Assembly: GCA_025963715.1 (NCBI GenBank)
Contig: JAOQAG010000016.1
Span: 1-64,000, forward strand
DNA length: 64,000 nt
Direction: 5' to 3'
Source: Bacteroidota bacterium
GTDB lineage: Bacteria; Bacteroidota; Bacteroidia; 2-12-FULL-35-15
Positions 6,407 through 61,934 of this stretch are shown here, one piece after another. Position 1 is the stretch's first letter, and each line of letters begins with the position of its first letter. Below the pieces are notes generated by a model. It worked only from the letters and a program-made list of their open reading frames with translations. It ran no database searches and was not told the DNA's origin. A program made the position numbers and the translations under genes.

Positions 6407-6452
6407 ATGAGCATCCGGAGCTTTTTATTATAAAATGAATTGCTTTGAGAAC

Positions 6453-6542
6453 GTCATTGCGAGGGCTTTTCGCCCGAAGCAATCTCATTTTAGCTTATAC
6501 ACTAGTGTGAGATTGCTTCGGGCGAAAAGCCCTCGCAATGAC
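6453..6542. repeat. 35-bp perfect inverted repeat with 20-nt loop
   Basis: GTCATTGCGAGGGCTTTTCGCCCGAAGCAATCTCA 6453-6487 and exact reverse complement 6508-6542. Confidence 0.92.
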
Positions 6543-6636
6543 GCGTTAATCAGAACTTTTTCGATAAAAAACAAAATAGGTTTGATATAAACTTTACGAT
6601 AGTAATTGAATATTAAAAGGAGATTGTGCCTGAACG

Positions 6637-43850: not shown

Positions 43851-43929
43851 AAATATTTGCTTCATGTCTTTCAGAATACTCTACTGCCTAATAAGCAAAA
43901 ATAATAGACTACTCATTCTGCCGACTCTT

Positions 43930-44123
43930 TCTGTCTTGTCCGGCAATAGCGGGAATGAGCGCCGACGAATGACACTGAGAAAGATTATCATTTTGCATTT
44001 ATCAGATCAGTGCTGAGAACCAATTGGCGTTCATTAGCCGCGGTTCTTCTGAGCGACAGCGGAAGAAGAAATTGCATTACAAGACGGAAAAGGTTTTTGC
44101 CACTTTTTGCCTTCAAAAAGTGG
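43930..44123 (-). repeat. Inverted partial copy of the 60-61.5 kb non-coding repeat family
   Basis: Reverse complement reads CTTGTAATGCAATTTCTTCTTCCGCTGTCGCTCAGAAGAACCGCGGCTAATGAACGCCAATT..., matching the 60-kb units. Confidence 0.85.
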
Positions 44124-44166
44124 AAGTATGCAATTGCAACGCGATGTATAATTCCGTGATATACAA

Positions 44167-59911: not shown

Positions 59912-60011
59912 CGTTTACTGGTTCATTTGTTCAATCGTTCATTGGTTGCTGTGTGTGCTGTATGATCAATGTACCGGTTGTATTATCATTAACCATCTGC
60001 CTGATAAATTT

Positions 60012-61490
60012 GTACTCAAATCAGATCATAATTTTAAATCATAAGCGCCACAGGCGATCTTTTTATACATCATAAAGATCATTTTTGATCTGCGTTCCGA
60101 TACGCAGGACTTCACTGGTATGATTTGGTTCCAAGAATTTAAAGTTTCTGCAATTTTTTATCTTTTATCTTTTATCTTTTATCTTTTTACTTTTTGCAGC
60201 CAAAAAGTAACAATCCCGCACGTGCGGGATAATCTTGTAATGCAATTTCTTCTTCCGCTCTCGCTCAGAAGAACCGCGGTTAATGATCGCCAATTAATTC
60301 TCAGCATTGATTTGATATATTCGAAAAGATCTTCTGTTTTTGCATCATTCGTCCGGCGATCATTCCCGCTATTGCTGCACAAGATCAAAAGCGTCTACCC
60401 GGATGAGTATCGTTTTTAATTGTGATTCCGTTGCTGTGTGTGTTGCTGCGTGGTAAGACAGAATGAAAGCTGTCTGATTAATTTGCACTAAAATCAAATC
60501 ATAATTTTAAATCATAAGCGCCACAGGCGATCTTTTTGTACATCATAAAGATCATTTTTAATCTGCGTTCCTATACGAAGGGCTTCACTGGTATGATTTG
60601 GCTCCGAGAATTTAAAGCTTCTGCAATTTTTATCTTTTTACTTTTTGCAGCCAAAAAGTAACAAAAAGCTTTTTTATCTTGTAAGGCAATTTCTTCTTCC
60701 GCTCCCGCTCAGAAGAACCGCGGTGAATGATCGCCCATTAATTCTCCGCACTGATCTGATATATTCGAAAAGATCTTCTGTTTTCGCATCATTCGTCCGG
60801 CGATCCTTCCCGCTATTGCTGCACAAGATCAAAAACGTCTACCCGGATGAATATTGTTTTTAATTGGGATCTCATTGCTGTGTGTTACTGTGTGGTAAGA
60901 CAGAATGAAAGCTGTTTGATTAATTTGCACCAAAATCAAATCATAATTTTAAATCATAAGCGCCACAGGCGATCTTTTAAGCATCATAACAATCATTTTT
61001 AATCTGCGTTCCGATACACAGAACTTCACTGGTATGATTCGTTCCAAGAATTTAAAGTTTCTGCAATTTTTTATCTTCTTACTTTTTGCAGCCAAAAAGT
61101 AACAATCCCGCACGTGCGGGATTAATCTTGTAATGCAATTTCTTCTTCCGCTCTCGCTCAGAAGAACCGCGGCTAATGATCGCCAATTAATTCTCCGCAC
61201 TGATCTGATATATTCGAAAAGATCTTCTGTTTTCGCATCATTCGTCCGGCGATCCTTCCCGCTATTGCTGCACAAGATCAAAAACGTCTACCCGGATGAG
61301 TATCGTTTTTAATTGGGATTGAATTACTGTGTTTGATTTACTTGCAGACAGAATCATCATTAATTTGCTGTTTGATTAATTTGCACTAAAATCAAATCAT
61401 AATTTTAAATCATAAACGCCACAGGCGATCTTTTTATACATCATAAAGATCATTTTTGATCTGCGTTCCTATACGCAGGACTTTACCGGT
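60012..61490. repeat. Direct array of ~440-475 bp repeat units: three full and one truncated copy
   Basis: Anchor (g)cgccacaggcgatc at 60045, 60518, 60960 and 61416; shared hairpins and conserved blocks. Confidence 0.93.
60156..60183. repeat. Heptamer array TTTTATC x4 inside repeat unit 1
   Basis: Four exact copies; units 2 and 3 have a single copy at the equivalent site. Confidence 0.9.
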
Positions 61491-61934
61491 ATATTGTTGT
61501 GTATAAAAAATGGCCGGAAGGCTATCGACCACTGGTAAATGGAAATACAGTAAAGTGGGTAAAAAACACCCCCTGCAGCAAGCAATTATGCATCGTTTAA
61601 GAATTACCTCAAAACTATTTTTACATGTGCAGAAACATCATCGCTGAGCAAAGAATTAAAATCTGCTGCTTCTTTAAATGATATTCAAACCGGTAATGTT
61701 TTTATTGCAGGCGGCTTCCCGGGCCATACTGCATTGCTTGTTGATGTATGCGAAAATAAAATCACGTATGGGGAATTATATATGATCCGGCAAAGTTAGA
61801 TGCCTGCGCAGGAAATTCACATTCTTAAAAATTACACGAACAGCGCTACCTCTCCGTGGTATAGCATCAATTTTGCAGGAGACCCCGAAACGCCATAATG
61901 GACGTTTAAGAAGAAGTCTTTAATGCGATTTTGA
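61490..61934 (+). pseudogene. Decayed DUF4846-like gene fragment
   Basis: Conceptual translation YKKWPEGYRPLVNGNTVKWVKNTPCSK [frameshift] SNYASFKNYLKTIFTCAETSSLSKELKSAASLNDIQTGNVFIAGGFPGHTALLVDVCENKITYGELYMIRQS*MPAQEIHILKNYTNSATSPWYSINFAGDPETP*WTF; in-frame TAG 61797-61799 and TAA 61896-61898. Confidence 0.75.

Follow-up and report, generated by a model that had tools for sequence, protein, structure and literature searches.

A dispersed intergenic repeat with covarying hairpins and a three-way-junction core in a Bacteroidota genome

Repeat copies in the window and anatomy of the element

The window, the whole 64,000-nt stretch of Bacteroidota DNA analysed here, contains a non-coding repeat of roughly 200-600 bases. 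Three tandem units lie at 60-61.5 kb, a number that corrects the first-pass annotation, and a minus-strand copy lies at 43930-44123. The latter had been described as a reverse copy of the 60-kb unit, which was confirmed by a reverse match of 163 nt (83%, E 5e-44); however, the repeat extends beyond the earlier limit of 43930, to about 43869. The 44-kb hairpin is CCACTTTTTG-CCTT-CAAAAAGTGG (44100-44123), and the 60-kb hairpin is TTACTTTTTG-CAGC-CAAAAAGTAA (60187-60210). Both sequences and positions agree with the earlier description. The 44-kb copy did not arise from a 60-kb copy by point mutation. Its P0 loop and 3' tail are of class B and its core is of class A, which makes it a mosaic of two subfamilies, and the two hairpins belong to different subfamilies. 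The features are as follows.

43869..44126, minus strand: whole 44-kb copy, mosaic of class-B hairpin and 3' tail with class-A core; outer limits approximate (all-against-all BLAST ends, flank comparison)
44100..44123, minus strand: P0, 5' terminal hairpin, 10-bp stem, loop AAGG on the element strand (sequence)
44090..44099, minus strand: linker after P0, an A-run copying the right arm (CAAAAA), then CCTT complementary to the P0 loop AAGG (sequence; complementarity over 67 distinct modules)
43930..44086, minus strand: three-way-junction core (covariance model R1 match, 145 bits, E 1.2e-35)
44079..44086, minus strand: P1a 5' arm CGTCTTGT, partner 43932-43939
43932..43939, minus strand: P1a 3' arm ACAAGACA
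44071..44075, minus strand: P1b 5' arm GCAAT, partner 43943-43947
44044..44070, minus strand: P2 hairpin, arms TTCTTCT / AGAAGAA
43949..44043, minus strand: P3 stem-loop, arms 44026-44043 and 43949-43963
59997..61545, plus strand: tandem array, three class-A units, period 444-473 bp
60187..60210, plus strand: P0, array unit 1 (sequence)
60231..60388, plus strand: core, array unit 1 (R1, 161 bits)
60638..60661, plus strand: P0, array unit 2
60675..60832, plus strand: core, array unit 2 (R1 match)
61079..61102, plus strand: P0, array unit 3
61124..61281, plus strand: core, array unit 3 (R1 match)

The element begins with the 5' hairpin P0 (10 bp), followed by a linker and the three-way-junction core, which is composed of P1a, P1b, the hairpin P2 and the stem P3; longer copies also have a mirror-image hairpin at the 3' end. 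The limit of P0 is sharp, with T against C at the fourth outer position in most copies. The unpaired core motifs AACCRCGG and TTNCCGCTAT are invariant, and no conserved ORF was found in the element. Three contexts were distinguished. Class A is the naked repeat, which forms the tandem array (period near 450 bp) in the window. Class B1 lies inside MITEs that have the terminal repeat GAGTATCSGGAACTTTGYACC and duplications of about 10 bp (locus L106). Class B2 occupies about 500 bp between repeats TTGCATTAGAAAAATGTAGG, and an additional hairpin, TTTCTTTTTG-TTTCAAGA-CAAAAAGAAA, is located towards its 3' end. The core is kept in these very different flanks. The L106 duplications might be taken for the element's own, but they are attributed to the carrier, since these terminal repeats also bound unrelated MITEs of 174-197 bp.

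A short palindrome, TCCCGCACGTGCGGGA or TCCGCCGCGGCGGA, takes the place of the linker that separates P0 from P1a (60213-60230, for example) in numerous copies. At locus L013 (C29:19.4-19.9 kb), a nested palindrome CCCGCCCGAACGACTGAAATTTCGTTCAGTCGGGCGGG is located in the P0 loop, between the arms, and locus L028 is similar. The terminal repeat GAGTATCSGGAACTTTGYACC gave about 121 matches (loci L106, L167, L171 and L182, and contig ends of G000), many of them less than 350 nt from contig ends; this suggests that the repeat it bounds is a multicopy insertion sequence collapsed by assembly, with several unrelated cargoes. Another palindromic repeat, with CGTCATTGCGAGG ends, is located at 6452-6543 of the window. 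Its sequence, which resembles CGTC-tagged REPs, also makes up MITEs of 174-197 bp at other places in the genome.

Complementarity at the ends and covariation of the stems

Each end is built from two arms separated by a loop L, after which come a short A-run that repeats the right arm and a stretch that complements L. In 69 of the 82 parsed modules, the A-run of the linker is as long as the T-run of the stem; the arm lengths rise together (T4/A4, T5/A5, T6/A6). The loop and linker complements are, for example, AAGG/CCTT, AAGC/GCTT, AAAGGC/GCCTTT, ACGG/CCGT and GCAT/ATGC. Over 129 modules (67 distinct), the complement averages 2.96 nt versus 1.22 nt when shuffled (0/2000 shuffles, p<0.0005); the subfamily with the GCCG loop is among the exceptions. 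The 3' end of the long copies is the mirror image (CTTGAT...hairpin, loop ATCAAG), and the two ends share a common architecture with different loops.

The first-pass annotation had proposed that base pairing is maintained in the P0 hairpin. This holds for P0 and for four further helices. Within the own genome, only the outer pairs 2 and 3 of P0 vary. Across 73 copies, pair 2 is TA in 50, AT in 15, CG in 1 and mismatched in 7, and pair 3 is TA in 65, CG in 7 and mismatched in 1; G-U is found at neither pair. The 30 own copies have 93% of their cells paired, with 96 double-changed cells and 2 one-sided. When the genus is included (50 copies), 92.8% of the cells are paired and 283 are double-changed, whereas control slides of 1-3 columns gave 37-51% paired and 19-56 double-changed cells.

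Shared ancestry was removed with an event tree built from the unpaired columns alone, on which the pair states were reconstructed. The 36 pairs showed 101 double Watson-Crick changes and 10 other doubles, and a further 81 changes produced mismatches and 13 produced G-U; whereas 36 random unpaired column pairs gave 5 compensated and 50 other doubles. P0 pairs 2 and 3 contribute 9 of the 101. The covariation analysis over all copies that had been suggested earlier thus supports maintained pairing. Moreover, stem changes do not accumulate at the neutral rate that had been named as evidence against it. Among copies at least 85% alike, differences are 4-6 times rarer in the stems than at unpaired positions (0.16-0.27 of the rate there), and the stems are conserved even among copies at least 95% alike. 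The latter show 15 single changes and 1 double. Single changes dominate among close copies, and compensated doubles among subfamilies. A copying mechanism that fixes both arms together, the other explanation offered at first, is unneeded in view of these 15 single changes.

Structured RNAs normally carry far more G-U than was found here. G-U makes up 18 of 1660 Watson-Crick-or-wobble cells (1642 Watson-Crick), about 1% on the element strand, and helix-by-helix examination of 65 own copies showed it to be absent from P0, P1b and P2. A-C mismatches, which are G-U on the other strand, occupy 45 cells (<3%). Neither strand therefore looks like ordinary RNA, and the scarcity of G-U suggests that the pairing is probably selected at the level of DNA, or in both strands. 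Transversion swaps (e.g. AT to TA) are about half of the variable pair types (20 vs 18). In the internal loop of P3, columns 52/142 of alignment A1 showed apparent non-Watson-Crick covariation (A-A or T/C-C/T), which might be a tertiary contact.

Copy number, placement and distribution

A pattern search over the whole genome (4.9 Mb) gave 75 P0 hairpins, versus 0 for the reversed control pattern. The covariance model of the core found at least 83 copies in the own genome, versus 0-12 in congeners. Relatives were detected in 12 of 36 genomes of the genus, and in 30 of 395 Bacteroidia genomes from 20 genera, the weakest of them near the threshold. Two other Bacteroidia genomes have 6-7 dispersed copies each, which are 82-97% alike and have sharp ends. 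Nearly all of these copies start 0-22 nt before P0, and where tails are shared, the 3' limits lie just after the mirror hairpin. Among 50 scorable copies, 49 are intergenic and 5 lie in divergent spacers, which are slightly under-represented; orientation is inconsistent (16 with the neighbours, 19 against).

A wider search was seeded by a query modelled on a similar proteobacterial motif. The same end architecture was found, unannotated, in Ilyobacter (Fusobacteriota) and Pasteurella, and follow-up searches also found the end module in Aeromonas, Burkholderia (Burkholderiales are among the carriers), Variovorax and Parabacteroides. Comamonas, Chitinibacter and Paraburkholderia gave short matches. 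Both ends are present in the Variovorax copy. Variovorax also shares an inner motif, TGTYTGAGCGNAGCGAG, with Parabacteroides and with two Bacteroidia genomes from a single genus. In Parabacteroides distasonis (L333:3998-4047 and L334:2238-2287), the end module is directly 3' of a gene of the HU family, next to capsule genes. The queried end module was absent from E. coli and phages, and viral contigs (IMG/VR) gave four plus one matches to two such patterns. No Rfam match above the family threshold was obtained for the window and the loci tested, at gathering or loose thresholds.

A possible mobile DNA element and the alternatives

The preferred reading, with a probability of about 0.55, is that the repeat is a non-autonomous mobile DNA element that is gene-free, MITE-like in size and selected for its folded ends. 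It fits the bursts of copies and their scatter over intergenic sites, the sharp limits of the copies, the mirror-image ends, the rarity of G-U pairs, and the pattern of single changes within and double changes between subfamilies. The folded ends and the three-way-junction core would be required in cis at times when the element is extruded or in single-stranded form, probably as recognition sites for a transposition enzyme provided in trans. Selection on still-moving elements might keep both sides of the stems in step, and single copies would decay afterwards. If selection acts on moving lineages, single changes among close copies and doubles among subfamilies are expected. However, the conservation of the core exceeds the needs of transposon ends alone, and the conservation of stems among copies at least 95% alike also counts against mobility. 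No transposase gene was found inside or beside the copies, and the cluster neighbours are ordinary chromosomal genes. The fetched loci contain no ORF between paired ends that would mark an autonomous copy. For the naked element no consistent target-site duplication was found, and one 8-mer, ATTTTAAG (L318), is a candidate.

The element shares with the MITEs the absence of genes, the inverted ends, the dispersal and the copy bursts, and it has terminal inverted repeats with no transposase ORF, in the form of the mirror-image ends. The differences are that its ends are an inverted folded architecture and not an inverted sequence, and that no consistent target duplication was seen; the two clear MITE families here enclose the element and do not define it. 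In the open-licence literature, no description of this end architecture was found, the papers retrieved on the topic being those on REPINs and REPs, and the exact motif strings led to no relevant paper. The recurrence of related ends in distant bacteria suggests a family of structured mobile DNA that has so far escaped annotation. It is a tentative and rather doubtful extension that a mobile class spans at least Bacteroidota, Fusobacteriota and Proteobacteria, defined by the folded end and not by sequence, and moved by a reader of folded DNA other than the known Y1 transposases. Unannotated repeats built in this way are present in the intergenic spacers of many bacteria. If the ends are substrates of a novel recombinase, they would represent a new DNA-mobility system open to experiment; if the repeats are RNAs, they would form an extensive RNA family still to be curated. 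In both cases, the covariation yields a structure model and a directly searchable covariance model.

The main rival to the mobile-element reading is an RNA role, since the complexity and constancy of the core go beyond what an end requires; it is nevertheless considered unlikely. The repeat would then be a structured non-coding RNA family carried in different vehicles, in which the loop and linker form a pseudoknot with an A-rich third strand and the junction is the functional domain. The persistence of the junction core and its invariant unpaired motifs in the flanks of classes A, B1 and B2 would fit, and reading the minus strand as RNA turns a recurrent A-C (17/50, columns 104/175) into G-U. 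However, the low G-U content of both strands, the share of transversion swaps and the lack of an Rfam match argue against it, and ends that are inverted copies of each other suit DNA.

A poor prospect is that the repeats are REP-like palindromes that spread by the IS200/IS605 route, with a RAYT or another Y1 (HUH) transposase as the mobilising enzyme. REPINs and the GTAG- or CGTC-tagged REPs are also short intergenic palindromes in many copies, and compensatory changes in mobile palindromes are already known from the REPIN hairpins (PMC3116915). The hairpin ends here are small. CGTC-tagged palindromes occur in several phyla (PMC3733652), and the Bacteroidetes TnpAREP subclass 2.6 has atypical structures (PMC6006769). 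The CGTC-tagged REPs are defined by a CGTC/TGTC foot, an 8-9 bp stem starting with two A-T pairs, a loop of 4-5 and a CCA tail. Some Bacteroidia copies have this foot and an AACCA tail (TGTC/CGTC-ACTTTT..AGT-AACCA); however, their second stem pair is C-G and their stems are 8-13 bp. The element also differs in its length of 200-600 nt with a three-way-junction core, and in its loop-complementary linker at both ends. The P0 feet are TTTA, TTAA, TCTA, CTTA and GTCA, and not GTAG/GTRG. IS200/IS605 ends likewise have subterminal hairpins at both ends and extra base-pairing segments; in the element, however, the complementary segment is located within the hairpin foot and corresponds to the loop instead of a cleavage site, and no Y1 gene is associated. 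The Y1 domain (PF01797) was undetected in five element-bearing genomes (G029, G011, G032, G006 and G024), a search that could miss weak relatives, whereas the element-free genome G016 has 11. This counter-correlation led to rejection of the Y1/RAYT link, and membership of the REP/RAYT and IS200/IS605 systems failed on the tested features. A classical REP arrangement does occur in the own genome, at L061:1162-2161, where a Y1/RAYT-type gene is flanked by its own GTAG palindromes (GTAGGCGCTAGGC...); the Y1 gene of L062 has another palindrome and no P0 nearby.

It is quite improbable that the repeat serves the host as a terminator, attenuator or processing signal and owes its spread to a benefit for neighbouring genes. 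The intergenic placement, the slight shortage in divergent spacers and the Parabacteroides module 3' of the HU gene would be compatible with this, but orientation to the neighbours is unbiased, none was detected in two thirds of the congeners, and tandem arrays exist. Template switching in replication, which would copy one arm onto the other in one step and without selection, could account for transversion swaps as frequent as transitions and for arms that lengthen together, but it is very improbable and was rejected as the main cause, because single changes prevail among close copies, the P1 arms covary although about 150 nt apart, and the loop-linker pairing is not a hairpin.
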